Below, one piece after another: positions 6,667 through 56,994 of a DNA stretch of 64,000 nt (within the stretch, counting starts at the first letter, position 1; each line of letters begins with the position of its first letter). Made by a program: the position numbers and the translations under genes. The notes beneath the pieces were generated by a model, which saw nothing but the letters and a program-made list of their open reading frames with translations, was not told the DNA's origin and did no database searches. This DNA comes from Anadara kagoshimensis. Taxonomy: Eukaryota > Mollusca > Bivalvia > Arcoida > Arcidae. Location of the stretch: positions 17,218,615-17,282,614 of the forward strand of contig CM037874.1 of the NCBI GenBank assembly GCA_021292105.1, written 5' to 3'.

Positions 6667-6960
6667 ACGAGTGAACTGAGTAACGGTGTTTAACGTCCCA
6701 GTCAAAAATAATTCGCTTACACCGAGAAGCTGTCACCTAAACTGGGGCGAAGGTGCAGCGTGAGAAATTTTGCCTATGCGTTGCGCTGATGGCATTATAC
6801 AGCAGGGTTCTTTATTGTACCACGCCTACCGTGACACGGGACTTCGTTTATTTTTAAGTTTCCACCCGAAAGAACCGTGACTCTCATTTCGTAATGCCGA
6901 GTGATTGGCGAAAGAACAGTCACTACCCTCTTTCAAGTCGTTGGTCATACCCGGTCGGGG
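6667..6960 (-). mobile_element. 5'-truncated tRNA-derived SINE
   Basis: Begins with the family tail (gtgtttaacgtcccagtc) and runs to cccggtcgggg; the tRNA-like head is missing. Flanked by cctgcag at 6660-6666 and 6961-6967, so it may have inserted in truncated form. Confidence 0.8.
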
Positions 6961-8499: not shown

Positions 8500-9794
8500 C
8501 AACAAACATGCCAATCCATGTCCAAATCCCAATTCCAATTGCAAAATAAAAACTTTGAAACTGGCAAACCAAGTTAAACAGACAAACTTCCACCAGGGGA
8601 GTAAGGCTGGGTGCTCTGAAAGGGTAAGCACCTCCTGCTTAGCTATACTGGCGAACCAAGTTAAACAGACAAACTTCCACCAGAGGAGTAAGGCTAGCTG
8701 CTCTGGAAGGGTAAGCACCTCCTGCTTAGCTATACTGGCAAACCAAGTTAAACAGACAAACTTCCACCAGGGGAGTAAGGCTGGGTGCTCTGGAAGGGTA
8801 AGCACCTTCGTTTAGCTATACTGGCAAACCAAGTTAAACAGACAAACTTCCACCAGGGGAGTAAGGCTGGGTGCTCTGGAAGGGTAAGCACCTTCGTTTA
8901 GCTATACTGGCGAACCAAGTTAAACAGACAAACTTCCACCAGAGGAGTAAGGCTGGGTGCTCTGGAAGGGTAAGCACCTCCTGCTTAGCTATACTGGCGA
9001 ACCAAGTTAAACAGACAAACTTCCACCAGGGGAGTAAGGCTGGGTGCTCTGGAAGGGTAAGCACCTCCTGCTTAGCTATACTGGCGAACCAAGTTAAACA
9101 GACAAACTTCCACCAGGGGAGTAAGGCTGGGTGCTCTGGAAGGGTAAGCACCTCCTGCTTAGCTATACTGGCGAACCAAGTTAAACAGACAAACTTCCAC
9201 CAGGGGAGTAAGGCTGGGTGCTCTGAAAGGGTAAGCACCTCCCGCTTAGCTATACTGGCGAACCAAGTTAAACAGACAAACTTCCACCAGGGGAGTAAGG
9301 CTGGGTGCTCTGGAAGGGTAAGCACCTCCTGCTTAGCTATACTGGCAAACCAAATTAAACAGACAAACTTCTACCAGGGGAGTAAGGCTGGGTGCTCTGG
9401 AAGGGTAAGCACCTCCTGCTTAGCTATACTGGCGAACCAAGTTAAAAAGACAAACTTCCACCAGGGGAGTAAGACTGGGTGCTCTGGAACGCTAAGCACC
9501 TCCTGCTTAGCTATACTGGCAAACCAAGTTAAACAGACAAACTTCTACCAGGGGAGTAAGGCTGGGTGCTCTGGAAGGGTAAGCACCTCCTGCTTAGCTA
9601 TACTGGCGAACCAAGTTAAACAGACAAACTTCCACCAGGGGAGTAAGGCTGGGTGCTCTGGAAGGGTAAGCACCTCCTGCTTAGCTATACTGGCGAACCA
9701 AGTTAAACAGACAAACTTCCACCAGGGGAGTAAGGCTGGGTGCTCTGGAAGGGTAAGCACCTCCTGCTTAGCTAGCTACACCTGCAACGTGTGA
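8500..9794 (+). mobile_element. Dispersed element whose core is the 87-bp array
   Basis: Flanks aacatgccaatccatgtcc on the left and gctagctacacctgcaacg on the right also surround single-unit copies at about 37931-38092 and 39051-39210. The complete array replaces one unit. Confidence 0.7.
8561..9776 (+). repeat. 87-bp minisatellite, 14 units
   Basis: Units start at 8561, 8648, 8735, 8821, 8907, 8994, 9081, 9168, 9255, 9342, 9429, 9516, 9603 and 9690; period is 87 except two 86-bp units sharing ccttcgttta. Word: ctggcgaaccaagttaaaca. Because 87 is a multiple of three, open frames of up to 307 codons run through it on both strands; these are not genes. Confidence 0.97.
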
Positions 9795-17647: not shown

Positions 17648-20600
17648 GGGCAGCAACAGAACTTATGTCACCATAATCATCATCATCATTATAGCTCCTC
17701 ATGTCACATCGTCATCATCATCATCATTGGCAGCAGCAGAACTTAATGTCATCATCACCATCATTATCATCATCTTCATCACAATCATCATTATCATCAT
17801 CATTGGCATCAACAGAACTCATATCATCATCATCATCATTGTCGTCGTCAGCAGCAGCAGAACTCAATGTCACCACTATTATCATCATCTTCGTCAGATC
17901 ATCATGTCACATCATCATCAATATAGTGTCATCATCACATTAAACACCTTCACCATGACCAGCTACTTCCTTTGATTTGCATTTGACACATTAATTAACT
18001 TTTTTCCTCTCTTTTTAAGTCATCAATTTAAGTGATTGAATACACAATTAATTTGAAAAAATAAAATGAAATGAAAATTAAAAAAAAAAATCATTTAAAT
18101 GTAGTTAAAATTATTGTTGAATAAATATAAATTGACCAAGTGAGCTTCAAAAGCCTGAATTGATATAATTCTGACACAACCTATATATAGCCCCTAAGCT
18201 AACAATTTGCATCTCCAATTACAGAAGTTGTCCAGGAGACTGTTTGTTGACAAGAATGGTGTACAAAAGGGGGCAATATTTCTTAATAATTAATTGATTA
18301 TTTGGATAACTGAAATTCCAATAATCCTCTGCTACAATAAAATTAGATCTACTTTGAATTTAAGTATTATTAGGTGGTCAGATAATTTATTTTACCAATT
18401 TTAAATGTCCAGGTAATTTACTCCCGCTGTGAGGCCCACTGAATAAATAGTCTAAAGAACCAGACATCGTTCTATTTATAGTTGACAGTGTCTACCTGAA
18501 CTTTACAGAGTTGTTATTCTTTCAGGATTTCATTTTTATCAGCTTCTATTTAACGGATTAATTATCAAGTGGCCACCAGGATTTTATGAATTAAATATAA
18601 GGTAAGAATAACACAATCTCGGACTTTGCATTTTTTTTGTGCAAGTTTATCATACACGTGGAATTTTTGATGACTTTTTTTGTTCCCGGAGATGGCATTT
18701 AAAAGAAAATGTCTGTTGTAGACACGGGTGGTCGCTAATATAAAATTTGCATTCAGACTGAACTGTCTAGACTAGTTATATATTAATTAACAGTTATATA
18801 ATGCTGATGCACGTTAATTTTGCTTCTCATAAAGTGGTGAAAATTCTGTCACAATATCCCCGATTGTCCCGGATATGTTTAAAAACTGAAATCCCGATTT
18901 TCGATGTGAAAGGAAACAAAAAATTCTATATTTAGATCGCTGATGTAAAATATTGTTTACATACGGGCTACTGTAGTTTAACATGCGTAAGATCTTCTAG
19001 ATCTACTCAATATTTTCTAAACGGACGACGTGAAATAAATTTTATTTAACCACGAAAAAAATTGTTTTTATTTATTACATCAGTAGCCAAAATATTGTTT
19101 GAATGTGTCATTTTAGCGTGTAGTATAAAATGAATCTGAAAGTGAAAGTTCTGCCCATTGACCAATCAAATCCATTGTAGAATTATATATGCAAATATGA
19201 CTTCACAGACGGGACTAGGTTCGAAATTACTACACGCTGTATCAGTGTGTGGATTGTTGTTTGTTTGTTTTATTTTCATTTAAGTTGTTTTAAAATACTT
19301 GCCTGAAATTTGGCATTCAAAAACCAATTACAAATAATCAGAAATGCATTTGTAAAATTAAGATCGGGCTCTTCTATATGGGTCTATTTCTTGTAACAGT
19401 AGTGTTTCGGTTAAGGGAAGATTTTGTTTACATCGATACGCCGTTAGTTACTGTCAAACGATGACAATACTCTGAAAAGTCTACGACTTTCCTACGTAAA
19501 AATTAATTACTTCTCACTTTCAGTTTAGACATTTATATTTAAAACCCTGAAGACAAAGGGAAGTAACTCAGTTCTATAAGCAATGCAATAAATATTGAAG
19601 TGAAATAATGCATGTACAAAAAACTGCTAAGAACATTTCATTATTACATGTATTAAGATGTCACCAGCTATAGGAAAAGTGACGGAAATTTTGCCTTTTC
19701 CAGTGCACTCATGGCAATGTGCAGGGGGGGGGGGGGGGGGGGGGTGTTCTTTAACATGGCATACTGGCCAAGAAATAGGACATTGGCTTTTAAAGTCTTT
19801 TATGAAGGACTGCTTCTTTAACTATTGTTTACAAGTACTAAGTGATAGCAGAAAAAACAGTCACTACCAATTTTAAATTGTTTGTTAGAACCCGACCTCC
19901 TATTTACGAAGCAATCATTCTACCAACTGAGATACTTAATAAGTCAATTACCGTAGCTGGTTTAACCAATTAACAATTTATGTACTCACAGGTCCTGGGT
20001 GAAGTCTAAATCCAGCTAAAGCACTTCCTGATAATGGATGTAATTCTTTCCCTGTAATAGGTGGCTTTCTATCAGAGATCGCAAAGAGCTGAAATAAAGT
20101 AATTAATATTAGAATTGTATATTCAACTAAGTCAATTAATTCCATTCAGCTTATTTGTGAAATCATTAAGTTTTATCACTCATGAAATAACTGAAAGAAC
20201 ATGAAATAAGTTTATTAGCCCAAAACAGCAATGCATACATATATAGTTACTAGTGAATATGACACAAATTTTTGTCAAGTTCACGTGGAATTTCCAACAG
20301 TATGTCACCAGACTTGCCATTTTGAAATGTGAAATAAGTCTCATCAACAGGATCTTGCAAGTTTTTTCAATTAATCATTTGGGATTTTCCCTAATCTTTC
20401 AGTATACTGGTCTCTGTTGGGCTTTCTTATCTCTCACACCATCAGTCATATTAACCTCTGTTGATGATTAAACTTCAACTTTATTGTTCATTAAACCTTT
20501 CCTTACAAGTTTACATAAGGACATTAATCTTACCTATTGTCTTGTATACCTGGACTGTCAATATGACCAGGTAAATTTGGCAGGAAAGCACTTAGCTCTT

Positions 20601-23600
20601 CTTTGCCTTCTTTTTTACAGAATTTACTGTAAGAGTGTTCTAACCCATAATAAGTCATAAGATTTGTACTTCCAGCTATTTCTGCAGGTTCTGAAATGAA
20701 AATACAATAATGTCTAGTAAATTATATTATTTCTACCAAATAACATAAATTATACAGGTTATTGGCAGGTCACACAGCCCCATGAATCCTGTCAGAGATT
20801 TTTCTACCTTGAGGTGCATGGGGCCATGAAACTTGCCAATTTTCTCACCCTTCAAAGAAGCTCAATAGTTTGGACTTTTTACATTAAATTTTATATTCTG
20901 TGTGACTTCACTGACCTGTGTACCTTGTTGCTATGTATGTTTACCATAACTAGAGTGCTGCAATGTGTGAGTAACTCCCCTTTTACCGCTAAATGTCTTG
21001 AGTGTTTATGTATCCAGGCAGATTTCAGAACATAGTTTCTTGTACCCCGGCAAGTAAACCAATTGCTATGTGTTAGCAAATTTGTTGCTAAAAATCTTGA
21101 TTTAAATATAATCCATGCATTGTATCTAACTTAATGCACTAAAATATATCTTGGGTGGGTGCTTATAACCCTCATGGTAAAAGTTTTAACAAAATAACAA
21201 AAATAGTTGCGTCTTTCATGTGATATAATGATGGTGAAAGAATTAATAGCATAGGAAGATGCCTCAGGGGTACAATAAAGGGTAGATCAAAGGTTAGGTA
21301 GAGTTATTTTATATAACTTGCTTTAGGTGTGATAATGACAAAGCTTTCCCCTTTCTTAACTTATTAATTTTTTATCAAACTAGGTTAACCCAGTTTTGTC
21401 AAAATCAATCCGTCATCAAGCACTAACCTATGTAAATAGTCAACGTTTCCGTCATCACTACCCCCACCATTTTGTCAAAATTTTTAATAATGTAAACACC
21501 CACTTAAATGTGTGTTGCATTTTGTCGCATAAAAGTAGATGTAAAGCAAAAACAGAGCTAAAAACAAATTGCTAGCAATGACCTCTGTACAATATTTGCA
21601 TTTTTTGCTTTCTCTGACATAGAGTAAATAAACAGTAGTGATATCTGACTGGCATTATCACATTAATACTAAAAGGGTGAATTACTGCACTGTTATAGAA
21701 AGCACAGCTTTCTGGCAGCAGTGATGCTTTCACCATAGATAATAGATAACTTGTGTACATAATTCTATGACCAATCAAACTATACAAAGCCCATTACTCT
21801 AACTGTAAACACATCTGTATACTGGAGAGTTGAAAAATTTGTGTCAAATTCACATGGAATTTCCTGCAATGTTGCAATCTTGAAACAAACCAAAAGGGAT
21901 ATTGTGAGTTTTCAAAAAGAATCATTTCAAATGTATTTGAGAATTTCCTTAAGAAATATAGAAAATTGATTATGGCTCCAATAGGTCTGACCTTAATCTA
22001 CATTAGGCCTATGGTAAAATTAAAATAAAATACTTCAGCCACTGTGGATTACTGGGCTTTCATAACTGTCACGCCAACAATTATAGAAAGTGCAGCTTTT
22101 TCGCGGTCTATGAAGCTTTCACTTTAGATAATGTGTGTACATTATTCTTAATCAATCAAACCACAAAAAGTCCATTAATCCAACACAACAATCGGGTCCG
22201 TCGAAATACCCAATGCCACCCAATGTCACCCAATGCTACCCAAAGCTACTCAAAGCCATCATAAGTAATGCTTAAATTTATTTTATATATCGTTAAATGG
22301 GTCCCTTTTAATAAATTAGTGCTTAATTAATTCGAATTAATGCACGTTCAACGCAATTTTCGAGTCAAATATGTACGATACGTAAGCTGTTAGATCGAAG
22401 AATTCTATTGTTAAACTTGTATACCTTTTCATGTTCAATTTTCATCATATTTTGCTATTTAGCATTTATGTTTTACTATTATCTGCCGTTTAACGGCAGG
22501 TAAATATCAAAATGTTAAAAATAAGCCATTCCAGTAAGATTATTCGTTCTAGTAAGCTGTATGACAAGGGAGAAAACGGTATCTGGTCAACTCGTTCCAA
22601 TTCCAACTCGTTCCAACTGATTTTTGCCAACTCGTTCCAACTTTTTACCAATTTCGTTCCACTTTTTTATGCAGAGTTTTTACACTTGTCTCTTAATTAC
22701 CAACTCGTTCCAACTTCTTTACCAACTCGTTCCAAATACTAACTCGTTCCAACTTTTTCACAAACTCGTTCCAAATTAAAATTTTTTTAATGATTTTAGC
22801 CGTTATCAACTTGTTCCAACTTTAAATATAATTAAATAATTAATTTAAGAGGGTTTAAAAATCAAGGATCTCCTAATTTCCAATTAATCACAACGTTGCC
22901 CAGCTCTAACCACGTGGAGGTATCCTCTTCAAGAGCCATAATAGTCCAAAGTTCCAAAAGATATATATTGCAGAGATTTCTCATTTTTTTAACGTTATAT
23001 ATTTTTTTATATTTTGTTTTTTCTTTTCTTTTTTATCTCTTTGGTATCTTTCTTCATTTCTTTTCTTATTGTGTTTATTATTTTATTCATTCTGGTTGAT
23101 TCGTTGTTATTACTGTTATCGAGAGTAGTTTGTTTTTAAAAAGTTCGTTTGATCTTGTTTAAGAATACTTTCAGTTTTTAAACCATTTTCGTGTATTTTT
23201 CACGCACATTTGTCGGTAAAAAAAGAGGAAAAACAACCTAATTTTTCAATCGCACACTAATGTTTACAAAACAAATAAAGGGTTTATTTGCGAAACTTAA
23301 ATTCCTTTAAAAAATAAAAGATACGCTGCTAATGCGCTTGTTAACCGGACAAACGATCCGTTTATCTGTTTATGTTGCCGATCTCCCCCTCTGCCGATCT
23401 ACCGAATAGTTCCGACAGTCGTGATAAACAAAGACATAGCAATTAATTGTGATCACCATACATGATATTATTTATTATTTATCTGTTTAAGTTATATAAT
23501 TTATTTGTTAATTTAATTGTTTATCTATATTATGCTATTCTTAGTACGTCAGGTTTAATGCGTGTTCATCACTTGAAATAAAGGAAACTATGGGGAATAT

Positions 23601-26600
23601 TTATCTATTAAATAAAATAAAATAAAATAAAGCAAATATAAAATAAAATAAAATAAACGCATGTAGATCTAATCAACTTAATTGAAAAATTTGGTACGAG
23701 TTGGTAGTTGGAACGAGTTGGCAAAAAAGTTGGAACGAGTTGGTAATTCAGTTGGAACGAGTTGGTAGTCAAAAGTGGAACGAGTTGGCAAAAATCAGTT
23801 GGAACGAGTTGACTAGTATTCGAGAAAACCGGCCGTTTGTTTTGACCAACTGTAAACCTTCCGCCTTGTAAGGAACACCTAAACGTCTGCTGACTGATGT
23901 TACGATTTTGAGTACATATTGCAATGTACATTATGTAAGAGACCGGGGTCCAGTTTTACGTAAAATCTATTTTCTCACTAAATCTAAAATTCATTATTAC
24001 ATTTTCATTTTAAGTCCTAAATTGTTACAGAAATATATTTGAGTAAAAACATTTTTTTTTAGTGTTGCCTTGTTTACAAATATGAATATTTTTTGCATTT
24101 ATTTGTATATTGTAGTCTCTGTAGTTTATTTTTTTCACAGATCAAGTGCTGCTGATATACTTTTTTGCAGCTAAGGAGTAGAGTAAAAGTCAAGATTTTT
24201 TCACTATCAAACATATTTAGAGATGGGGAGGAATTCGAAACTGTAGAGCCCAAAGAAAACCAACAACATTCCACAACAAAATGACCAACTTTCTCACACA
24301 AAAACTGTCCTAAATGAGATTCAAACTTGTACAGTAAGAGGCCATGTCCCTACCAACATTTCAGAGGTTATGCTGGACAGGTGCCAGTGTAATGCACAAA
24401 ATAATTATGCATTTATTATGTCAAGTTAACATTTATTTTTCTTAAAGTAATGATAATTTTAATATGCAAGCAATACATCTTTATTGACATTGTACTATGT
24501 GTTGGCCATGTAGTGTTATCTGCAATAAAAAAAACCCAAACATAGTCATTATAATATTCAATGTAAGTACTAATGTTTTTAGCATAGCATTAATAATATT
24601 TAATCTACAAATAAAAAAGTTATCTATGAATAATCTGAAAATATAATGTTGGCAAATCTGTAAATAAAATTTGAAATATGCATCTCACCTGTCAATAAAT
24701 ATCAAATAAAATGAAATGAAAAGGGTACCCTAAAAAGTAACTTGTAGGAATAAATAATCTGAAACTAAACTGTATAGGTATTAGTAATCTGAAAATCATC
24801 TGAAATAAATACATTATACATGTATGATGTATCATAAAATCATGTGAAAATAAACTACATGTATATATTCTGTATTCTTGAAAATGAACAAAAAAGAAAT
24901 TAATTAAAACAGAATGGTTTAATGTAGTACCAGTATAACATCAATCACCACACAAGAATGGTACTGTGGGGCTGTATGAATTGGCTATGATGTGTGCAGC
25001 AATGATCCATGATTTAAAGTTTGGCTAAAATTGAAATACAGTAAAAGATATTTACATAGATTCTTGCACAATAAAAGTGAATGGGTTATATTGTGATAAA
25101 TTTCATAAAAAGCTCAAATACATGTACATGTATCAACTTTAAAAATATGAAATGTTTGAACAGTAAATCTAATACATGTAGTACAAGAATCTTTGTGATC
25201 CATTTCTGAATTTTCTGTGTTGTCAAGTATGTTTTCTGCTGGTACATCTATACTTGCTGTGGTTACTGTGGAGAGAAAACATTCAAAATTAGCATCAATG
25301 TTATAAAACCCTTTGGTATTTGTAGCTGTGGAATCATCAACAACAGTAGTAGTAGTGATAGCTGAAGGATCTAGAATTGCATTAATTACAAGATTTTTGC
25401 AATTTGTGCATTTGCAACCTGGACCACAATATCTGCCAACATCATCTCCTGTGATACTGCTCTGTTTCTGAATAACTAAACTGAACTTTGGCATTTAAAA
25501 TCTATCTCCAACCCTTGAAGTGGCAAAACTGTTCAAATTTCTAAAAACAAAAGAAAGTAATTTACAGTTGAAAACATTTTATGTAATTATCTATATCAAC
25601 TTCTCCTCTTCTGCAAACTTTCTGAAATTTAACAAACTACATGTATAATTATGCTCCTTCAGCCTCCCTGCCAGCCTGTGTACCTGTAAATATGTGATAC
25701 AACTGTAAACTTCTGATCTGAAACATTAAAAACACATTGTTTTAAAATTTGCATGCACTGCAGCAGTTAAATCAACGCCAGATAATTGTTGTGCAGATGG
25801 TTTTCTAGCAAACTGTCCATCTTGTGACTCTAAATGTAATGAAAGTGTAAAAAAAAATCCAATATCAGCTGATTTCTGAGTCACATAGTGACTACATGGG
25901 GCCAGCTGGGCGATCTGGATGTTTGATTTTCGTGGCATTTTTTCTACAAAATTGAACTAAAATTAAACAAAAATGTTTAAAGATTATATTAAAAACACAC
26001 CAACAAATATCTAGAGTAAAAATAAACAAATTAGAAGATGTCTAGACGCAATAAATAGCACGTTTTGTTTTCCAAATCATCGGCACGCAGGGTCAACTTG
26101 ACAATCTTCCTGTGCAATAACCGGTGCGAATGATGGTTTCTACCCGGTATCAAAATGACCGGTATTCAATATGCTACCGATTACGACTATAATTTTTAAC
26201 CCAATCGGTGTGGGATGCGATTCTGTCAATGCACCGCCCACTTGATTTTGACCTTTCACGATACAGCAGTTTACACTAGAAGGGGGTTTTACCGGAATAA
26301 TTGCGAAATTCCGGAATAGTTAGACACTTTCCGTAATCTTTGCGAAGATCCGGAATATTTAGATCAAATCCGTAATTTCTAGACCAAATCCGAAATAATC
26401 AGACAAAATCCGGAATAATTGGTCAAAATCCGGAATAATTAGAATATTTTTACGGTAAATTTTACGGATTCTAAAAATTCCGGTAAGTGTCTGATTATTC
26501 CGGTAACTTGTCTGATTATTCCGGTAAAAGACTGATTATTACGGTAAAAATCTAATTATTCCGGCAAATGTCCAATTATTACGGTAAAAATTAAAACAAA

Positions 26601-28142
26601 TTTTATTATTTTTTAGAAAATTTCCCGTAATAATTGGACATTTGCCGGAATAATTAGACGTTTACCGTAATAATCAGTCATTTTCCGGAATAATCAGACA
26701 CTTACCGTAATTTTTAGATTACGGAAAACTTACCGTAACAAAATAGTCCAATTATTCCGGATTTTTGCCTGATTATTCCAGATTTTGCCTGATTATTCCG
26801 GATTTTACCGGTTTATTCCGGATTTTACCTGATTATTCCGGATTTATTTGGTTTATTCCGGATTTGGTCTGATTATTCCGGATTTTCGCAATTATTCCGG
26901 TAAAACCCCCTTCTAGTGTTATGTCTATGATTTCAGCATTTTAATTAGTTATAAGGAGTGTTTAATTGTTGTGATCGTCTAGAAAAATCAATTTTCTATC
27001 AAACGGATACAAAATTATATATAGTTTAAGTTAAAAACACCATTTAATTAATGATTTATTGCGTCAACCCTAAAATGCAAATTCTTCGAGATGACGACAA
27101 AGCGCCATCTGCCGACTAAATTTGAATTACCCCCCTTGAACGGCCCTGAAGATTAAATCGCGGGTTTAACGGAAAAAATCGAAGCTGGCCTTTCAACTGG
27201 TAGAACATGCAATATTACTAAATAATTAAGCACTAATTTATTATAAGGAACCCATTTAACGATATATAACATAAATTTAAGCATTATTTATGGTGGCTTT
27301 GGGTAGCATTGGGTGGCATTGGGTATTTCGACGGACCGCACAACAATCTGTATACTGGTGGGTTTAAAAATTTGTGTCAAATTCATGTTAATTTTCTCGT
27401 ACTACGTCACCATATTGAAAAGGGATCTTGTGATGTCGAGACCATTCTTTCTTTTCGGAGATACCACCACGATATGGCGCACCACTCTTAACAGTGTAAA
27501 AACAGAGTATGTGTATATTAACTAAAATTTTTGAATGATTTCAGAATTTTTACTATGAAATATAGACAAGTAGGTTAGTTTCGAAAGGTTTTACCTAGTA
27601 CATAATTTAAATTAGCATTTGGACTATGCTAAAATTAGAATAGAAACTTCTGATGTGCTTTCTTAACAGTCACACCATCAGTCATATTATTAGAATTTAT
27701 CATTTACAGCTCAGTGCAAGTAACTGAATGATTTCACAGGTTTTGCACTGTAGTTGGAAGAAGAGTAGATACACAGACCATCTGGTCATATTTGAAATAA
27801 AATGCATCTCATAACCATCCAATTAAATTACAGAATGCAACCATTTTGTAATTCTCTCTCGCAAAATAGTTTTCAAAAGTACGGTGCAGTTTGTGGAAGC
27901 GAAAGATAAACCGAAAAAGCGACAGATTCTGTCTACTGCTACTTTTGCCAAGTGACAAGTTTACCTGGTACATCTTTTACGAGGTAAAAAGGGCCGGAAT
28001 TGATTACTGATGGAACTCTGCCTAAACTTATCGTTGTCTTCAGTGTTCCTGAAGAGTCTCCTCGGGGATAAGCAGGTGACCTCGATCCCCGGGGACTTGA
28101 TTTAGGAGAAATTGTGTCTGGTCGCCGAATTGGATCATTCAT
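13273..28142 (-). CDS. MED19: MED19, Mediator head-module subunit (six exons, apparent frameshift)
   Basis: Mediator subunit 19 links the head module to activators at RNA polymerase II promoters in the nucleus. Seen: exons 28142-27965, 20690-20534, 20088-19990, 16047-15948, 14072-13956 and 13286-13273, all GT-AG and in matching phases. Recognisable blocks in order are GPFYLVKDVP, AGSTNLMTYYGLEHSY, FLPNLPGHID, DNSSLRSLIE, KPPI, LAGFRLHPGP, LPEQYRFM, then a lysine-rich tail, all in the order known from animal MED19. The product would be about 221 aa, within the family range. One base is missing between SLRSLIE and KPPI in exon 3: upstream and downstream exons agree in phase only if it is restored. 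This could be an assembly error in an A-run, a null allele or a decayed copy; intact splice sites and coding elsewhere favour a functional gene with an error or recent allele. Confidence 0.88.
13956..14072 (-). CDS. MED19: MED19 exon 5 (lysine-rich tail)
   Basis: Acceptor TTGTAG|AAAATT and donor GAAG|GTATAT. In the phase set by exon 4 it encodes ENSADSRDDKKHKKLNHDPE followed by a KVKRKKKKKKRVKDKEE tail. Low-complexity basic sequence resembles the human tail around DPDRKRKKKEKKKKKN. Assignment rests on phase, splice sites and composition. Confidence 0.75.
14131..14310. mobile_element. MITE, TIR ACAGTCAAACC, diverged (MED19 intron 4 edge)
   Basis: Left aacagtcaaacctttaaata, right agctggttttactgta; shares tttatagacaggtggtcttt with 11326-11508. 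It starts 59 bases from MED19 exon 5. A fragment is also at about 56805-56900. Confidence 0.65.
14774..15206. mobile_element. Probable DNA-transposon remnant rich in GTATCGCGATAC-type words (MED19 intron 4)
   Basis: Edges taggggtgtgcggttttat and attttgataatacccatcccta are roughly inverted, with cggtataccggtat and acgtatcgcgatac palindromes inside. Imperfect ends and no duplication found. Confidence 0.4.
15948..16047 (-). CDS. MED19: MED19 exon 4 (LPEQ and first lysine block)
   Basis: Acceptor TTGTAG|CTTCC and donor CAAG|GTATAT. Encodes LPEQYRFMNQMPKKKHKPKK and onward, matching human LPEQCRLMHIQPPKKKNKHK, so it continues directly from the GFRLHPGP end of exon 3. Basic clusters are typical of the MED19 C-terminal tail and of nuclear targeting. 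Confidence 0.88.
16250..17945. repeat. GAT/ATC trinucleotide tract with strand switch (MED19 intron 3)
   Basis: 16250-16610 is dominated by gatgatgat; 16735-17940 by catcatcat, both interrupted by a recurring agcagcagaact(ca)atgtcac phrase or its complement. The tract gives poly-His/Asp/Ser frames that are not genes. It lies between MED19 exons 3 and 4. Confidence 0.95.
19664..19940 (-). mobile_element. Diverged SINE remnant with poly-G run (MED19 intron 3)
   Basis: Retains gaaattttgcc, gtgttcttta, aaaacagtcactacca and gaacccgacctcctatttac in family order. Contains a 21-base G run at 19724-19744. Confidence 0.65.
19990..20088 (-). CDS. MED19: MED19 exon 3 with apparent 1-bp deletion
   Basis: Acceptor TTTCAG|CTC and donor CCT|GTGAGT. 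The entry phase set by exon 2 gives SLRSLIE, exactly the human core sequence; the next residues in that frame are unrelated. KPPITGKELHPL and LAGFRLHPGP, also conserved, lie in a different frame. The switch falls at an A-run (about 20058-20062) where three A are present and four would restore the frame. The downstream exon fits only the second frame. Confidence 0.88.
20240..22183 (+). repeat. Low-copy repeat family, several diverged copies (MED19 intron 1 and exon 2 flanks)
   Basis: Words tttgtgtcaaattcacatgga, cacaccatcagtcatatta and atagaaagcacagctttct recur around 20260-20460, 21690-21930, 22025-22190 and, beyond the 5.1-kb element, 27349-27690. Non-coding. Confidence 0.6.
20534..20690 (-). 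CDS. MED19: MED19 exon 2 (conserved core)
   Basis: Acceptor TTTCAG|AA and donor ATAG|GTAAGA. The first two bases complete a Glu codon begun in exon 1 and the last two start a Ser codon finished in exon 3. Encodes AGSTNLMTYYGLEHSY and FLPNLPGHIDSPG, which align with human GSTNLITHYNLEQAY and FLPDLPGMIDLPG. Intron 1 upstream is 7.3 kb and mostly transposon. Confidence 0.9.
22184..22193 (+). repeat. Left target-site duplication of the 5.1-kb element
   Basis: cacaacaatc, repeated exactly at 27339-27348. Flanking sequence resumes on the other side (tgtatactgg...aaaatttgtgtcaaattca) and aligns with an uninterrupted paralogous copy around 21800-21860. Confidence 0.8.
22586..23822. mobile_element. 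Foldback module built from the word CAACTCGTTCCAA
   Basis: The left arm (about 22586-22822) has nine near-copies of caactcgttccaa spaced about 16-40 bp apart. The right arm (about 23691-23818) has six copies of the reverse complement ttggaacgagttg. About 870 bp of T-rich core lies between. The arms agree in word and spacer (tgatttttgcc versus ggcaaaaatca). Flanks share agaaaac/gttttct. No coding capacity seen. Confidence 0.75.
25114..25494 (-). CDS. Unrecognised 126-aa frame with a cysteine-rich CxCxxC-type motif, inside a transposon
   Basis: ATG-started frame MPKFSLVIQKQ..., with VGRYCGPGCKCTNCKNLV at residues about 20-37 and a second Cys cluster at the end (CTTC, DTCTC). The Cys pattern is reminiscent of CXC/tesmin-type zinc-binding modules, but only one half is present, so function is not assigned. 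The middle is Thr/Asp rich. An acceptor-like TTTTTAG lies upstream near 25545. It lies inside the 5.1-kb long-TIR element within MED19 intron 1, same strand as MED19. It may be an element-encoded protein or a captured fragment. Confidence 0.35.
   Translation of the reverse strand: MPKFSLVIQKQSSITGDDVGRYCGPGCKCTNCKNLVINAILDPSAITTTTVVDDSTATNTKGFYNIDANFECFLSTVTTASIDVPAENILDNTENSEMDHKDSCTTCIRFTVQTFHIFKVDTCTCI
25726..25938 (-). CDS. Unrecognised 70-aa frame upstream of the Cys-rich frame
   Basis: Starts MPRKSNIQIAQLAPCSHYVT and ends at a stop after ANFKTMCF. It has a basic start and no recognised domain. Possible upstream exon for 25114-25494, but no convincing donor was found before its stop. 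Lies in the same transposon. Confidence 0.25.
   Translation of the reverse strand: MPRKSNIQIAQLAPCSHYVTQKSADIGFFFTLSLHLESQDGQFARKPSAQQLSGVDLTAAVHANFKTMCF
26273..26919. mobile_element. Foldback module built from the word CCGGAATAATT, with perfect 36-bp TIRs
   Basis: TIRs at 26273-26308 and 26884-26919 are perfect inverse copies (acactagaagggggttttac...). Inside, the word occurs about 27 times in blocks: eight forward, six inverted, five forward, eight inverted. A TTA beside the left end and just inside/after the right end could be a 3-bp duplication of PIF/Harbinger type. No ORF. Confidence 0.8.
27339..27348 (+). repeat. Right target-site duplication of the 5.1-kb element
   Basis: Exact copy of 22184-22193. 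Confidence 0.8.
27965..28142 (-). CDS. MED19: MED19 exon 1 (start, GPFYL motif)
   Basis: Encodes 59 codons plus one base, beginning MNDPIRRPD, with a Ser/Pro/Arg-rich disordered N terminus and ending GPFYLVKDVP, the MED19 signature that reads GPFYLMRELPG in human. The donor is G|GTAAAC. The start is the first in-frame ATG; the longer open frame upstream begins with TTG and is not needed. Another ATG ten bases upstream is out of frame. Confidence 0.85.
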
Positions 28143-28152
28143 TTTCGTCCAT
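28135..28152 (-). promoter_or_regulatory. Five-codon upstream ORF overlapping the MED19 start
   Basis: ATG at 28152-28150 opens MDENE then TGA at 28137-28135, overlapping the MED19 ATG (28142-28140) in another frame. Its context AACATGG is closer to the Kozak optimum than that of the MED19 start. It matters only if transcription begins upstream of it, which cannot be seen here. Confidence 0.35.
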
Positions 28153-28246
28153 GTTGTTTTTTGCAACTGTCAATAGAGGGCGCTTTCCTTCTCGTTCTTC
28201 CCTAGTAAATCCCACTTGTTGTTGAGCACCTATTTATGTACTCGAG

Positions 28247-28587
28247 TGAGTGAGTAATGGTGTTTAACGTCCCAGTCAAGAATATTTCACTTATATCGAG
28301 ACGTCGCCAGCTGTAGGCGAAGGTGCAGAAATTTTGCCTGTGCATTGCGCTGATGGCATGATACAGCAGGGTTCTTTAGCGTGCCAAGCCCACCGTGACA
28401 CGGGACATCGTTTATTTTAAGTTCCCATCCGAAAGAACCGTGACTTTCATTTCGTAATGCCGAGTGCTTGGCGAAAGAACAGTCACTACCCACTTTTAAG
28501 TCTTGGGTCAGACCCGGCCAGGGATCGAACCCACGACCTCCCACTTACGGAGCGAGCACTCTGCCAATTGAGCTACCGCAGTGGTAT
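28247..28587 (-). mobile_element. Full-length tRNA-derived SINE just upstream of MED19
   Basis: Reverse orientation: tail gtgtttaacgtcccagtc at the left, tRNA-like head (B box GGTTCGATCCC in reverse, A box agctca) at the right. Flanked by a 14-bp duplication tttatgtactcgag at 28233-28246 and 28588-28601. The element ends 105 bases upstream of the MED19 ATG. Frames on both strands through it are not genes. Confidence 0.9.
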
Positions 28588-28796
28588 TTTATGTACTCGA
28601 GCTCGCAGCGAGAAGTCTGTAGCTCGACAACAAATCTGCCACTGGCACTCTATCATGGGTAAACAATACAGAGCATGCCATGAACCTGATAAAAACAATT
28701 ATTAAAGATAATTCAATTATATGGTACATTACTGATACATTACTTCAAATGTATTAATCAAAAGCAATACTTATCCCCAAGCTCAGAGACATATAG

Positions 28797-29159: not shown

Positions 29160-30190
29160 GTACCCACCTATATAGAACCATATCGTAGGTCCCTAGACTG
29201 GCCACATGGTCACAATAGGTCCATAAACTAGCCACAGAGTACAGTAGACCAATAGGCTAGCCAAAGAGCCTCAGTAGGCCACTATCTCAGTGAGTTACCA
29301 CAAAATCACAGGAGATTCATAGGTTATTTACCACACAAGTTGACACAACTACCCATCATGAGAGAAACACTAGGTTCCTAGACTACTCATATTTATAGTG
29401 CCACCCTAGGTTAAACGGCTAAACATATAACCCCTGTCGACCCCTAGACTAGCCACAGCGCCACAATATGTCCCTAAACTAGCCATAGTCTCACTATATA
29501 TTCTTGAATAACGAGAGCCACAGTCTCCAGGTTACACATATTTTAGACAGACTAGGTCCACAGACTAACCATAAACCCACAATAGGTTTGTAAACTAGCG
29601 AAATAGTCATCTTAGATCCACAAACTAGCCTAAACTAGCTAGCCAGGAGCCAAATTAGATCCCCAGACTAGCCATATATAGAATCACAGTGGGTACTTAG
29701 ACTAGTCATGGAGCTGCATTAGGTCACTGACCTTTCAATATAGCCGCAGTAGGCCCGGTCCCAGAGTAGCCATAGTGTCTGGGAACCACTGCGGTAGCTC
29801 AGTCGGTAGAGTGCTCGCTCCGTAAGTGGGAGATCGTGGGTTCGATCCCCGGCCGGGTCTGACCCAAGACTTGAAAGTGGGTAGTGACTGTTCTTTCGCC
29901 AAGCACTCGGCATTACGAAATGAAAGTCACGGTTCTTTCGGATGGGAACTTAAAATAAACGAGGTCCCGTGTCACGGTTGGCTTTGCACGCTAAAGAACC
30001 CTGCTGTATAATGCCATCAACGCAACGCACAGGCAAAATTTCTGCACCTTCGCCTATAGCTGGCGACGTCTCGATATAAGTGAAATATTCTTGACTGGGA
30101 CGTTAAACACCATTACTCAACTCAACTCATAGTGTCTGGAGATATAGTAGTGTGACCCAATGGCTAGTCTAAGGACCCATGTGGCTTTAT
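29160..30190 (+). repeat. Degenerate tandem array interrupted by the 29783 SINE
   Basis: Recurring phrase taggtcc(c/a)tagactagccacag at irregular 30-60 bp spacing from 29160 to 29782, resuming at 30128-30190 (ctagtctaaggacc). Confidence 0.7.
29783..30127 (+). mobile_element. Full-length tRNA-derived SINE
   Basis: Head gcggtagctcagtcggtaga (A box) and ggttcgatcccc (B box), body gtgactgttctttcgccaag, tail ttgactgggacgttaaacac. Flanked by the 12-bp duplication catagtgtctgg at 29771-29782 and 30128-30139. Same family as 28247-28587 but opposite strand. Confidence 0.92.
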
Positions 30191-37900: not shown

Positions 37901-40900
37901 GTCCTCTCATCAAATAGTGTAAATCAAACAAAAATATACCAGTCCATGTCAAATTCATAATCTCAATCCTTGAAAACTGGCAAATCAGGTTAAATGCACA
38001 AAATTCCACAAGGGAAGTGAGACCGAGTACTCTGTTAGGTTAGTGTAAGTACTTCCTGTTTAGCTACAATGAAGCTACACCCGTCACGTGTGAAATTAAA
38101 AAAAAAGAGCATTGAAACATGTGACTAGGATAATTTTGGATACAGACAACATGACAGCCATAAAACACTGTACCTGTCTTGATCGCTCTAGACTTGCAAT
38201 ATACCTGAGTTAGTAAACTATATACATCAGTTTGCATAACCTCTCATTAACTTAAGAAAAATCAGTACTCATCAGTCATTAACTAACATTTGAAGAGTAA
38301 ACTGAAAGTAATGAAAAAGATCAATATTTTGATATCGAAAACTGTTTTATTATGTTTTTATGACAGCCAGAATATCAAACAATTTATTTACAATACATTC
38401 CAAAAACAATATACATTTGTAATATAACTTTGGGACTTTACATGCTATCCAAATCATTAGGCAGATGTAGTCTAAAACTACGGAGCAAAAGAAATTGAGT
38501 TTTCAGTCTTGGTCAGTATTTTTGGATTTTCCGATGATGTCACCGATGATGTCAAACATTGCATTGTTGGACTACTTGATAGATGTTGTGGCAACCTTTC
38601 TCAGACATTGTTCTCTACTTGGGCAGAACTCTCCTAAGAAGTTATAGTTCTCTACTTAGGCAGAACTCTCCTAAGAAGTTAGCAATACCAATCTTGACTG
38701 AACTGACATCCTTCATATCGTGAATGGATGAATAGGCGTAAAATACAATTATTATACTTAACTCTATTGAAATCGTTATGGGGTTCAATAGATTCTGCAG
38801 CACATGTATAACACAATACACGGTCCTGTTGTAACGTGTCTCTTTATATTTTACTGTAAATAAAAATATCGACGAATCTAAATGAAAATAGAAATGAATA
38901 GTAGTTTTTTTTCCTGATAAACGATCTAGTAATATTGATCAACAAAAGCAGCAGTTACAAACACTTGGTACTAGTAAAATCGTACGTGTACAAACAATAG
39001 GTGTTAGGCTGAATAACCTGCCTTCGTGGTGGTAAACAATCAAAAACAATTAAACATACCAATTCATGTCCAAAATATTATTCCAAAGCAAAACCTTGAA
39101 ATTTGCAAATTAAAATTAGTTAAACACGTGAACTTCAACCGGGAAATTGAGACCGGGTACCCCGGAAGTGTAAGCATCTCCTGTTAAGCTAGCTACATTC
39201 GCCATGTGTAAATCATTCTTATGGTAGCAATATTAGAAATGACTAACCATGGTTTAGGCAGATAATTCGACTTAGATCCTTGTCAAATGTAATTCAATAC
39301 ACGAGTATTACAAAGCGTAACAGCATACTAGCATGCGATACTTTAATTAAAATGACAATGTGAAAATAGACAAACGAATGTCGAACATATTTTGAATGAA
39401 GTCTGTTGACAATTATATGCTTTCTATTTAGTCAAAAATAGTATGTAATCTAAGGAAATCGAAGCATTTTTGGTAAACTAATTTTGCTGTTAAAATGATT
39501 GGGCTTAAATATCTCGAAAACAAGGAGCTTTAATCTATAAATCGCAAAACAAAACTTGAGGTTAACCAATTACTAGTATATCATACTACAATGTCACGAG
39601 TTCAGTGAACACATATGTAGCTAGCTACGTTTTTCAACCAAAAATAGCTCTGAATTCGAAAATGACTCCTTCACTGTATAATTCACGTTTAAATTTAACT
39701 ATAAATGGAATTTCATGTGTAATATGTAACACACAGGGTCATGGCAACTTTCCTCGTTACCGCCTGCGTAATTACCACCTGCGTTAATTATATAATCCAT
39801 ACAAAATCAAAATACCAAAAAGTAGGGAAAATATTGGGATAAGTTCTGCAATTCGCCATTTAGCCAATTGCTATGCTATATAATTTGTAGCTCCAAAAAC
39901 TGTTGTTGGCCAATATTATTGGCCAAAATTATTATCAATTTCATTATGATGCAGACAAAAAACATTGAATTTTTAAAGTTTATTTTTATTAATTGTTTCT
40001 ATGAAAAAGTAAAACAAGTGTTATAAACTGTAGGCAGATAAAACAAAAATACATTGTTGGTTTTAGTGGCTTAGTTTGTTTGGTTCTTTAAGATATAAAT
40101 TGACCCCTTAAGATTTAAAATTGGCTAAATTTTTTGCTCCACCTTTTTGAGAGCCAGAGATAAAACTGAGCTACTAGCAAACAATTGTTTGTTACTATTC
40201 GGTAGTTCAGAAGAAAGTGCACTCATGAACAAGGTAAAAAAGTATTGAAACAATTTTGAAAGTTTTTATTTTTTATATACACGTAGTTTGTAACAGGATT
40301 TCTCCTACCAGTTGCTACGTTTGTCTTCGTTTTCTTAAGTGTACTAGAGTCAGCTAAATATTGTGTCACGTTGACATGTAGTAAAAACTAAAAACCCATG
40401 CAACTTGATGAAAGTTAATTTTGCGAATTTAGCGATAAATTAGCCTACCGACGTTTTGCAATACTAGTACCGTATTAAATTGGTTACACAAAATGAACGT
40501 TTATTTAATGATTAATTGAGTTCTTTGTATGCGGTATATTACCTTTGTGATTTCAAAGGGTTCAGTATTTACTAAATAAAATAAATCAACTTTAAACGAT
40601 AAGAAATACACATAAACTCTGTATTTATCATTGACACATGGCTTTAAATGATACATACAGTACAGGTCTGTCGAAAGTTTAACACTTAGCTGACGAATAA
40701 ACGCATCTTGGTCCCTCGTTAGCTATATCTTGGTCCCTCGTTAGCTATATCTTGGTCCCTCGTTAGCTATATCTTGGTCCCTCGTTAGCTATATCTTGGT
40801 CCCTCGTTAGCTATATCTTGGTCCCTCGTTAGCTATATCTTGGTCCCTCGTTAGCTATATCTTGGTCCCTCGTTAGCTATATCTTGGTCCCTCGTTAGCT

Positions 40901-41794
40901 ATATCTTGGTCCCTCGTTAGCTATATCTCGGCAGGTTTTAGACAGCGGCTATCTATTATATCCCTCGACAGGTTATCGACCACTAACTATCCATATCTCG
41001 GTCACTCAGCAACCGAGCTTCGCGTCCTTTTCGTAAGCTCAGTGTTAAACTTTCGACAGGTTTGTACTGTAATTATATGTTGGAGTAAGACCTACATCGT
41101 TATATAACAAAATGTCGACGGTCGCCATCGTAATTTGTAACACTAATTACCTAATTACAATTATCTTTATATCTTACTTAATGTCTTAACTGATTTTGAC
41201 GTCTAAATTTAGAACTTTAAAATGTAGGTGTGTGAAATATTTCTTTAAAGGCAGGACGTATACGTATTGAATATCGGACGACTGTCGTATTATAAATTTG
41301 TGAATTTTCTGAATGAATTATTCAAAAAGTTATAATATGACAGCGGTTAGAAAATTCAAAAAAATGTACTATGAGTCGACAGGACAATAAACATCACCAT
41401 TTATGAATTGACTGTGGAAACGTTTTTGGTACCTCTTGCAACACCTCTAATTGTTTAATAGAGTAAATAAAGTTAACTGTCTATATAGATACAGAAATGA
41501 ACAAAAATGTTTTGAGTACACTTCTTCGCAATTTTTTTTAATACATGTAGTTAAATAATTTCATTAAGAAGTGACTAAAAGAGCAAACTAAAATGGTATA
41601 CGTCAGCTTAATTGTTTGTGTGAAACAATTTGGGAAATGGTTACGTCTTTTGTATTGGAAAGTGTGGGAGTAGGCGATTCCATATCAGTCTCATTGCCAA
41701 AGTAGGGCGTCTCATGGTCATATTCAACGGTTTCATTATGGTACTGTTTGCGAACCATTTAGCATGGCGTGCTTGGACCAAGTTATATATACAT

Positions 41795-45509: not shown

Positions 45510-45770
45510 TCCAACTTGAGTCTGACCAAGGCTTGAAAATAGGTAGTGACTGTTGTTTCACCAGGCAGTCAGCATTTAGAAATGAAAGTCAAAAGGTCCT
45601 TCGGAAGTGACCTTGAAAACTAATTCCCTGTGCCACAGCAGACAAGGCACGTTAAAGAACACTCCCTGCACATTGACATTAGTGTACTGTAAAGGTAAAA
45701 AAATTGTCACTTCACCTAATGACATCTCAATATATTCTTGACAAGGATGCAAAACCCCATTCCATGAATC
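45510..45770 (+). mobile_element. Diverged SINE remnant
   Basis: tctgaccaaggcttgaaaat, ggtagtgactgttgtttcac, gaaatgaaagtcaa, cacgttaaagaacactccct and ttcttgacaaggatgcaaaa follow the SINE body and tail. Confidence 0.65.
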
Positions 45771-49019: not shown

Positions 49020-50429
49020 CAAGAGGCCCATGGGCCTTAACGCTCACCTGTGACCTTTGAACCCATGAGCTTCATTCAAATATCAAAATGATAATTCTGC
49101 CAATATTCTAATATACATCCCTATACAAAAAGTTTATAGTTTTTGAGATAAATAATCATCTCAGTACTTGTTTGTATCTGTGATCTTGACATTTGAACCC
49201 ATGCTCTTCATTCATCTATCAAAATGACCACTGTGCCCGTACTAACAATATTCTAATATACATGCCTATACAAAAAGTTAATAGTTTTTAAGATAATTAA
49301 CCATTTAGGTATTCATTCGCATCTGTGACCTTGACCTTTAAACCCATGAGCTTCATTCATATATCAAAATGATCATTAGGATAATACCTAAATAGTCTAA
49401 TATACATGCCTATACAAAAAGTTCATAGTTTTTGAGATAAATAATCATTTCAGATCTTGTTCACATCTGTGACCTTGACCTTTGAACCCATAACCTTCAT
49501 TCATATATCAAAATGGTTGTTAGGCTAATACCTACAATATTCTAATATACATGCATATCCAAAAAGTTAACAGTTTTCAAGATAAATAACCATTCAGGTA
49601 TTCATTCACATCTGTGACCTTGACCTTTGAACCTATGACCTTCATTCATATATCAAAATGATCGTTAGGATAATACCTAAAATATTCTAATATACATGCA
49701 TATCCAAAAAGTTAACAGTTTTCAAGATAAATAACCATTCAGGTATTCATTCACATCTGTGACCTTGACCTTGAACCTATGACCTTCATTCATATATCAA
49801 AATGATCGTTAGGATAATACCTAAAATATTCTAATATACATGCATATCCAAAAAGTTAACAGTTTTCAAGATAAATAACCATTCAGGTATTCATTCACAT
49901 CTGTGACCTTGACCTTTGAACCTATGACCTTCATTCATATATCAAAATGATCGTTAGGATAATACCTAAAATATTCTAATATACATGCCTATACAAAAAG
50001 TAAATAGTTTTCAAGATATATTGACAAATACATAATTTTTAGCAATTTCCCCACTCAGCACCTTACCATTTCCCCATTTTGAGCCCCATGGCTACCATTT
50101 GTGCAAATCTGAAACTAGATGACCTAAGGATGTTATATATGAAATAAATAAGGTATATGTCTTGTAGATTCAGAGGAGAAGATTTTTAAAGTTTTTCACT
50201 ATTTCCCCCCTTATGGGGCCCCAAGGGGACATAACTCCTTCATTTGTGCAAATCTGAGAGGGCTTCACCCAGGCATGATGGTTACCAAGTTTCATTAAAT
50301 TTGGCCCAGTGGTTTTGGAGGAGAAGATTAAAATGTAAAAAGTTTACGCACGACGGACGACGGACGACGCACGACGGACGAAGATGGATAGCAATAGCTC
50401 ATCTGAGCTTTCAGCTCAGGTGAGCTAAA
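49020..50429 (+). mobile_element. Element with tandem core and terminal hairpin, copy 1
   Basis: Starts caagaggcccatgggccttaa cgctcacctg, has about 6-7 tandem 144-145 bp units, then a conserved block (ccccaaggggacataactcc), a gacgacggacgacg tract, and ends in the hairpin gctcatctgagct/agctcaggtgagc before taaaaa. Same boundaries as 54364-56549. A short tandem core between unique ends, plus a 3' stem-loop, resembles bivalve pearl/Helitron-like non-autonomous elements; this is inference. Confidence 0.75.
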
Positions 50430-51987
50430 AATTAAGTTTTTCTAGTGACAGCATTTTATTAGGAGAAATAAAGTCTGCACATTCTGTAAATTTTCAATTT
50501 AACTTCATTCTGAAAAAATTCTATGTCCAACATCTCCATCTTTTTATCCTTAAAAGGAATAATTTTTTAGCAGAGACTGTCATTATTTATTAGGTAAATT
50601 CCTAATAAAATGATGCCATAATCTCTGGTAAACTGTGTTTTAGTAATAATGAATATGGTTTACCGGAAACTAATCACTAAACATGTACCTTACATCACTA
50701 GTCATTTTACTATGTTTGTTTTTAACAAGCTATCTATTAGATATTGACAGTATCTGGGAATAATCATTTTCCATAGAAACAGCATGGACATATCTGAGAA
50801 TTATAGATTGCCATGGAAACTTTTTCCTTGATACATTACATGTAGAAATGAAATCACCGATTGCTTTGCAAATTCTTTTAAAATTGTTTAATCTGATTAT
50901 TTCATGATAAAAATTTAAAAAGTTTATATAAAATTAAACCAGATATTAAAAACTTCTTAATTAAACATTAAGACCATTTAAAAAAATTAATTAGCTAGAC
51001 ACCTGATTAATAAAATTAAATGAAGTTAATTACACAAACTATAAGAACAGAAAATTTTACTTTAAAATACATACAATGAAAGTATTCTTGACACAACTGT
51101 AACACCTCACTCAACTCAAATCTGGCTTTAAGGAAACTTTTTTAATGTGTAAAGGTAACTTAACTCTGGCCACAACGGTCTACATATTTTATTTGCATTC
51201 TGGGCTTTCTGCCTTAAGCTAAGTTGCTGGATTCCCTTCAGAAGGAGAGCGACCTTGGTGGTTTGGCAATATAGAGCGCAGGTTTACTTATCACAGTGCC
51301 TCTCGCCATCTACTTTTAAATTCCCTCAGGATGATTCTATTGGGAAAAAGTTTCCAACTTTGCTTGTCAAAGGTTGTTGGTTTTCTTTTAGGTACTCCAG
51401 TTTCCTTCTCCATTTCAGAAATGACTACCTCTATATAAGTAAAGAAATCTTGACTCTAATCCACTCCTTCAGAAAGACTTGTTTTAAAGACCATATTCAT
51501 GGTATTTCTTTAGCACAACTATGTATATTGTTACAATCTAGTTATAAAAGACTGTATTTACATCATAATCTTAAACTAGAAAGTTTTCTTGCATCTCTAT
51601 CATTTTCTGATTTCCAGCAAACAACCAGTAAACATACAACTTAATTGTATTCAATTTAAAAATAAAATATTCACACTTTGACTTATCTTCATGCATTGTC
51701 AATTGATTTTATTTTAAAGTTTTTCATTTTTTTGTTTGCTTGTTTTTTAAGGGCCCTACATGACATATCGGACAAAACTGCATCAGCAACAATGATGATA
51801 AGAATGGCTTTCCAGCCATATTTATCTGAAAACAAGCATCTTTTATTCATTTAGTTTTTAATCTTCTATTGAACTGATTTTTTATCAAAGACAGCAATAG
51901 CAACTTTGTTTCCAACATGATTCATTAAAAACTTTTTCCAAACATTTTCCCCATTTAACATCGGGGCTGCTTTTCTGGCTCTGGGAT

Positions 51988-52432
51988 CAGGGTTCGTATA
52001 GACATTTGGACGCCAAATTTAAGGACTTTTTAGGGTCTTTTCAGGATCTTTTTTGCAAATTTAAGGCCTAATCAGAGGTACAACTGTAGCATAAAAATAT
52101 TGGTGCAAAGGCAATTAAATCAATAAAACAATTACTCACATGTTCATAGTAACAACACTTGAAGTGGATAAGGTTGAAGTTGAGTATTCGGGAGGGCCAA
52201 GTACCTTTAAATTGCTCCTTTTAAGTAACTTATTAATTAATATTTATTTATTTACATCAGTCTATTTGCAACCACTTAATATCCAACTACAGACACCCAA
52301 CTGGCCAATTTCAAGGGCTTTTTAGGGCCTTCAGGATAAATTCAAGGGCTTTTTAGGGTCAGACTTGTTTTTAGGGTCTTCTTAGGGCAAACCTCAAAAT
52401 TTAAGGACTTTTCCAGGCCTGTACGAACCCTG
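51988..52432. mobile_element. hAT-like MITE, 445 bp, 5-bp target duplication
   Basis: TIRs cagggttcgtatagac / gtacgaaccctg. Flanked by gggat at 51983-51987 and 52433-52437. Body carries the words ttaaggactttttagggtc and caagggctttttaggg. Relative at 57142. Confidence 0.8.
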
Positions 52433-54225: not shown

Positions 54226-56994
54226 CTGAAAAACAAATAAGAGCCAACTTATAATCACATTAAAACATTACATAGCATGCAAAATACTAAAACTGATCAT
54301 TTTAACTGATAACTCCTAAACTAGAACGCTGCCATTCAAAGTTTCACTGTTTAATAATATCTTAAACAAGAGGCCCATGGGCCTTAACGCTCACCTGAGG
54401 AAGAGTACATATCTTATGCAGAGGTTCAATGGTCAATGACATTAATAAAAGAGAATATCAAAATTTTCAGCAGTAAGGGCCAATAATATGCAAGTATTTT
54501 TGCAAATTAATTATAATAATTATTATATAAGTATGCTATATATAACATATCTAAAGTCTAGCTACAATATATTATTTATAAACAGCTAAGACATCTGTAT
54601 ATTAAAATGTGCATTAGGCCAATACCTACAATATTCTAATATACATGCCTATACAAAGAGTTTATAGTTTTTGAGATAATTAACCATTTAATTATTCGTT
54701 TGCATCTATGACCTTGACCTTTAAACCTATGAACTTCATTCATATATCAAAATGATTGTTGTGCAAATGCCTACAATATTCCACTATACATGCCTATACA
54801 AAAAGTTTATAGTTTTTGAGATAATTAACCATTTAAGTATTCGTTTGCATCTATGACCTTGACCTTTGAACCTATGACCTTCATTCATATATCAAAATGA
54901 TCGTTAGGCCAATACCTACAATATTCTAATATACATGCCTATACCAAAAGTTTATAGTTTCTGAGATAATTAACCATTTAAGTATTAGTTTGCATCTATG
55001 ACCTTGACCTTTGAACCTATGAACTTCATTCATATATCAAAATGATCGTTGTGCAAATGCCTACAATATTCTAATATACATGCCTATACAAAAAGTTTAT
55101 AGTTTCTGAGATAATTAACCATTTAAATATTCGTTTGCAGCTATGACCTTGACCTTTGAACCTATGACCTTCATTCATATATCAAAATGATCGCTAGGCC
55201 AATACCTACAATATTCCAATATACATGCCTATAGAAAAAAGTTTATAGTTTTTGAGATAATTAACCATTTAAGTATTCATTTGCGTCTATGACCATGACC
55301 TTTGAACCTATGACCTTCATTCATATATCAAAATAATCGTTAGGCCAATACCTACAATATTCTAATATACATGCCTATACCAAAAGTTTATAGTTTCTGA
55401 GATAATTAACCATTTAAGTATTAGTTTGCATCTATGACCTTGACCTTTGAACCTATGAACTTCATTCATATATCAAAATGATCGTTGTGCAAATGCCTAC
55501 AATATTCTAATATACATGCCTATACAAAAAGTTTATAGTTTCTGAGATAATTAACCATTTAAATATTCGTTTGCAGCTATGACCTTGACCTTTGAACCTA
55601 TGACCTTCATTCATATATCAAAATGATCGCTAGGCCAATACCTACAATATTCCAATATACATGCCTATACAAAAAGTTTATAGTTTTTGAGATAATTAAC
55701 CATTTCAGTACTTGTTTACATCTGTGACCTTGACCTTTGAACCCATGACCTTTATTCATATATCAAAATGACCATTGTGCCCATACCTACAATATTCTGA
55801 TATACATGCCTATACAAAAAATTCATAGTTTTGCAGATAATTAACTATTTTGGTATTCTTGGACATCTGTGACCTTGACCTTTGAACCCATGACCCTGAT
55901 CTATGTATCAAAATGATCGTCATGTCAATACCTACAAATAACTGAAAATCCTACGCCATTATCACAAGAAATGTTGAAAAAATAGGATTTTTTTATCAAA
56001 GGTCAAAAACTGGGACATGACCTTGACCTTCGACCTTGACATCAAATCGAAGAAAATTGCAAGACAAGATCAACAGTGAAAACTCCATACAATTATCTTC
56101 AGCCGTTATGAAGTTATAACAATAAATGTCTCATTTTAAAAATTGCATAATTTTACGCAAAAAACGCGTAACCTATTTTTCGTCTGATTTTCATGAAAAA
56201 CACAATTTTAATGTTCCCAGGTATGCTGAATCCAAATATCCAATCAAAATTTGCCTGCACCTTTTGGTTTCAGAGAAGAAGATTTTTTGTCTTTTTGCTA
56301 TTTTTAGTAACAGCGGCCATCTTGTTGGGCGTGGCCAAACCCCGAACACAATTTTGAAAGGCTGTTACCAAGGCATGATAATCACCAAGTTTCATTAAAT
56401 TTGGCCCAGTAGTCTTGGAGGAGAAGATTAAAATGTAAAGTTTACACACGACGGACGACGCACGACGGACGACGCACGACGGACGACGGACGACGGACGG
56501 TGATAGATTGCAATAGCTCATCTGAGCCTTTGGCTCAGGTGAGCTAAAAAGCAAGCCATGTGGATATATGGACTTCATAGAGTTGAGCAATGCTGTTTGT
56601 TTTACACCCAAGATTTTTGTACTTGTATCAAGGCATGCAGTTCTTGGATGGTGGAGAAAACACAAGTATCCAGAGAAAACCATTGGGCTTGGGCATGTGA
56701 ATTAACAAACTTTCTCAGACTAGGATCTGTCAGAGATTCGAACCTAGACAGTGACAGGCAGTGATCCGCAAGCACACACTTTGACTACTTGGCCACAGAG
56801 GCTTCTGGACTTTGTAGACAGGTGGTCTTTGAAAAGTGAGTATTTTTGGTTGATATGAAGCCAAGGGGCAAAAACAGTGGTCTCAATGAACAGATGGTTG
56901 CTATAGGGATTTTAATTTGCTGAAAATTAAAATCTCTCATCCTAATGTGAATTGGGCAGGGGCCCTTACAATTATGAAAAAACATCAACATAGC

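Follow-up and report, generated by a model that had tools for sequence, protein, structure and literature searches.

A 5.1-kb insertion with long inverted ends and a 10-bp target duplication in the first intron of a MED19-like gene of Anadara kagoshimensis

Inverted ends, an exact 10-bp duplication and a matching empty site together show that a 5,145-bp segment of the Anadara kagoshimensis genome is a DNA insertion. It lies at positions 22194-27338 of the window, by which we mean the whole stretch of 64,000 nucleotides analysed here, and its target was a single unit of a local repeat. It is a real insertion of an ordinary kind and calls for no new mechanism. Judged by its anatomy, which is near that of the nematode Tm1 family, it is best read as a decayed, non-autonomous element of Mutator-like/Foldback type. 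Its clear insertion record (ends, duplication and empty site) provides a starting point for building the repeat family.

Insertion structure

The original prediction, made from the letters of the sequence, placed the element at 22184-27348, bounds that take in both target-site duplications. The left duplication, CACAACAATC, occupies 22184-22193 and is matched exactly by the right one at 27339-27348, as had been proposed. The left terminal inverted repeat (TIR) is 158 bp long (22195-22352, plus strand) and the right TIR, inverted relative to it, is 138 bp long (27200-27337, minus strand), both beyond the 110 bp first claimed. A global gapped alignment of the pair gives 126 identities among 138 aligned bases, 12 mismatches and 20 gap positions, the last forming two blocks of 10 bp. 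The outer 31 bp show no difference in an ungapped reading, while the gapped alignment opens its first gap after 22, and the inner 23 columns hold 7 of the 12 mismatches. BLAST gave E values of about 1e-33 to 1e-32 for the 125-bp inner part of the pair. A 21-mer from the element end, searched with up to three mismatches, occurs at two sites in the window, which are the two ends, and in 0 of 100 shuffles; no further copy of the ends was found in the window by this search, by BLAST or by inverted-pair scans. If the 10 bp of CACAACAATC are the duplication, the terminal bases G (22194) and G (27338) are unpaired; the first three TIR bases are GGG and CGG. An automatic duplication scan, whose range was 8 bp around the BLAST arms, returned AC and missed CACAACAATC because those arms end before the true ends of the element.

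The TIRs differ in length by two 10-bp units. A tandem array of about five ACCCAATGCC units lies in the left TIR (22208-22258, plus strand), and the right TIR contains three. Each end consists of 13 bases, the ACCCAATGCC-type units, about 70 bases containing 5 mismatches, and the 23 inner columns with their 7. In this single copy the TIR is composite, with a varying number of tandem units.

The target has an uninterrupted paralog at 21693-22085 (plus strand), which matches the rejoined flanks of the element. By BLAST, the left flank (22081-22184) is 74% identical to 21693-21803 and the right flank (27342-27420) is 76% identical to the neighbouring 21808-21885, in agreement with the paralogous empty site predicted near 21800. 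When the flanks were rejoined and aligned to the paralog, the score was 92.5 with one copy of the duplication, 89.5 with two and 82.5 with none, and 449 random right flanks scored at most 70.5. One copy leads two by 3 points, a modest margin explained by small indels in the target; for the same reason we can only infer the exact position of the cut. The same local repeat gives a weaker third match between 27499-27686 and 21892-22085 (63%), and 27606-27689 resembles 20365-20453 (72%, BLAST). A candidate second empty site at about 20205-20310 aligns weakly (62%, E 0.002). These flanks also bear on whether the structure could have arisen by chance or in assembly, as an inverted duplication with incidental 10-mers beside it. 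The window is rich in repeats, and two random 17-bp pieces drawn from it shared a 10-mer in 11 of 20,000 draws; the match described here, however, sits directly against both ends of the element, and an uninterrupted paralog aligns with the rejoined flanks. The empty site in practice refutes an artefact, which we regard as extremely improbable.

The insertion lies in a MED19-like gene on the minus strand. Frames with GPFYLVKDVPG near 27995 and GSTNLMTYYGLEHSYSKFCKKEGKEELSAFLPNLPG near 20673 are those that we take to be MED19. Intron 1 spans 20691-27964 (7,274 bp, with splice sites placed by eye), and the frame continues across the join. The element contributes 5,145 of about 7,274 bp, or about 71%, close to the 70% given in the original prediction. 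The sequence makes no function of the element in this intron evident; the locus illustrates intron growth through transposon insertion in the gene of a conserved Mediator subunit.

Internal sequence

Two foldbacks lie within the element. Foldback 1 (22583-23816, 1,234 bp) has the ends CTRGTCAACTCGTTCCAA and arms of repeats of about 22 bp around CCAACTCGTTCCAACT, and is bordered by an apparent TAT duplication (22580-22582 and 23817-23819) that was identified by eye; the automatic scan gave other matches of 3-5 bp here, not TAT. Foldback 2 (26274-26918, 645 bp) has the ends CACTAGAAGGGGG, is made up mostly of 20-bp repeats arranged in inverted order, and aligns over its full length with its own complement at 76% identity (BLAST). 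Its CACTAG ends are bordered by an apparent TTA duplication (26271-26273 and 26919-26921, by eye), a pair absent from the list of the automatic scan. Repeats of 3 bp are weak evidence, as the scan reported matches of 3-5 bp close to many of the window's inverted pairs. Because each foldback has ends of its own with a 3-bp repeat immediately outside, both are probably later insertions; that they are parts of the element itself is unlikely on the same evidence, and the earlier description of foldbacks accumulated by the element is better replaced by one of separate arrivals. Removing both, with one 3-bp copy each, leaves about 3.26 kb. Foldback 2 resembles small CACTA (CMC/EnSpm) elements in starting with CACTA and in its apparent 3-bp TTA duplication, and its end motif is presumably of this type; it differs from CACTA-type elements in containing no transposase.

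Between the foldbacks, 24173-24347 is a fragment of a dispersed repeat that matches 51293-51469 (64%, E 1.9e-10) and 60394-60457, the latter through 24237-24299 (72%, E 5e-4, BLAST). These three fragments resemble one dispersed repeat, and only the one at 24173-24347 lies in the element. The whole segment 23816-26275 scored 48.5 against 50600-52300, where the maximum among 30 mononucleotide shuffles was 45.5, and 35.5 against 59800-61000, a score without shuffles of its own; the repeat matches claimed here are limited to the short parts that are significant by BLAST.

The window contains several other repeats. An 87-bp unit is repeated in tandem 14 times at 8560-9774 (96%). Both strands of this array contain long open frames, which is unsurprising for a unit length divisible by three. 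At 40705-40928, a 22-bp unit recurs about ten times with a 100% match, so this array is probably very young or homogenised. Two arrays of a 145-bp unit (49046-50018 and 54598-55937), about 5 kb apart and with consensus sequences alike by eye, show higher-order periodicity at about 435 bp. Two inverted copies of another repeat, which we assume to be SINE-like, lie at 28247-28585 and 29785-30124 and are 96% identical; further copies occur near 6668-6960 (84%) and near 45520-45761 (68%).

Stop-to-stop frames were listed for 21500-28000, and 25 of the 37 lie wholly within the element. None of these 25 inner frames, each 50 amino acids or longer, nor the one edge-straddling frame of three that was scanned with them, matched a transposase in Pfam (6 frames at E up to 10 and 19 at E up to 1), which bears out the earlier statement that no familiar transposase is visible. 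One whole-length frame per strand contains 121 stops (minus) and 117 stops (plus), where base composition predicts about 129. The longest stop-free frame in the element encodes 126 amino acids. Rfam gave nothing at gathering scores in 21500-28600.

This longest frame (25114-25494, minus strand) is the Cys-rich frame of the original prediction. It is present and contains RYCGPGCKCTNCKN, half of a CXC pattern, and its match to the second half of the TCR/CXC domain (PF03638) has an E value of 0.024 and 15.4 bits, below the cut-off of 23.5. Unrelated families score alike (Gliadin 0.027, TAFA 0.025 and ATG19 0.017), and because such matches reach 0.017-0.027 in these scans, the TCR/CXC match is a lead only. 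The frame could be what is left of an element protein or of a captured gene, in which case the element would once have been autonomous or carried an accessory gene. The open frame with its half CXC pattern, and a second short frame on the same strand starting from an ATG at 25938, are consistent with this; yet the Pfam match is no better than those to Gliadin, TAFA and ATG19, an in-frame stop stands directly upstream of the first ATG, PDB gave no relative at E values up to 10, and none of six pattern matches in a viral contig collection was confirmed as a relative. We consider such a remnant improbable. It is slightly more doubtful still, and speculative, that the element belongs to an animal Mutator/Foldback lineage, perhaps a molluscan one, in which variable 10-bp units, each one helical turn, would form a transposase-binding array and larger members would carry an accessory or captured gene with a CXC domain.

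Classification and comparison with known elements

The length of the duplication limits the possible classes. Polinton/Maverick elements produce duplications of 6 bp, piggyBac and Kolobok elements target TTAA, and hAT, P and KDZ elements produce duplications of 7-8 bp; the 10-bp duplication leads us to reject all of these. The Mutator-like assignment of the original prediction stands in part: the long TIRs and the 10-bp duplication fit it, and no transposase match was found. In terms of Mutator-like elements (MULEs), this copy has long TIRs and an exact duplication of 10 bp, near the usual length of about 9 bp, and its inner frames show no match to the transposase; the value of 10 bp counts somewhat against a MULE, as 9 bp is the length most often seen in MULEs.

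A lesser possibility, to which we give perhaps a quarter of our belief, is that the element is non-autonomous but belongs to a different or undescribed TIR superfamily that makes staggered cuts of about 10 bp. It draws on the missing MULE transposase and on the ends being unmatched in other collections, which counts for little: the 21-mer of the element end had no match in viral and genome contig collections, but these consist of DNA from viruses and prokaryotes, may omit records of the window's own genome, and absence from them says little. The same applies to a plasmid collection, which gave no match to the element and consists of plasmid DNA. An inner 26-mer also had no match in viral contigs, although it is a poor probe with a degenerate base that fits the right end and not the left. 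Against another superfamily, the lengths of both the ends and the duplication fall within the range published for MULEs, as far as the available parts of these reports show (PMC3169594, PMC2725143, PMC13359780).

We therefore favour, with reasonable though incomplete confidence, an old non-autonomous class II copy that was most likely moved in trans by a MULE transposase and later received foldback insertions. Its age is suggested by the divergence of the TIRs (12 of 138) and by the nested insertions. A transposase supplied from elsewhere, most likely of the MULE superfamily, would have bound to these long ends, perhaps via the 10-bp repeats. The element, then about 3.26 kb long, would have been cut out of another site and inserted into one unit of the local repeat through a 10-bp staggered cut. 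The two unrelated foldbacks, with their apparent 3-bp duplications, probably came in afterwards, and the element would now be decaying in the MED19-like intron.

A search of the literature by words, not by sequence, found no published description of the element's family. The mollusc study, in the part available, reports MULEs in every genome analysed (PMC10294476). With MuDR/MULE elements in general, the element shares long TIRs, the 10-bp duplication and GC-rich outermost bases, and it differs in that this copy has no match to a MULE transposase. In the sections available, MULE duplications are given as 9 bp or 9-10 bp (Hop, EMULE and Mutyl, the last 9-10), with TIRs of 99 and 187 bp cited (PMC2725143), and the duplications of Trichomonas TvMULE2 as 10-14 bp (PMC3169594, PMC2725143). 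Arthropod MULEs are described, in the portion of that report available, as having TIRs of 13 to 1,193 bp, mostly 20-95, and as conserving G/C at the first three TIR bases in most cases (PMC13359780); the GGG and CGG of the Anadara element agree with this.

The closest anatomy is that of the Tm1 MULE/Foldback family of Meloidogyne, as set out in the accessible text of PMC3169594; the likeness is one of described anatomy, not of compared sequence, and the element here has no known relative that bears a transposase. Tm1 units are mostly 14 bp long, versus 10 bp here, and its unpaired terminal motifs are 7 bp, versus one unpaired base here (PMC3169594). In both, the inverted ends are composite and include short tandem repeats, and a single Tm1 element, too, can have unequal numbers of units at its two ends (PMC3169594). 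The same account gives Tm1 duplications of 8-10 bp in 45 of 53 elements, mostly 9 bp, and an average TIR identity of 93%, versus 126 of 138 (91%) here. As in the Anadara element, many Tm1 copies are described there without a transposase, the outermost bases are non-inverted, and some copies contain nested insertions (PMC3169594).
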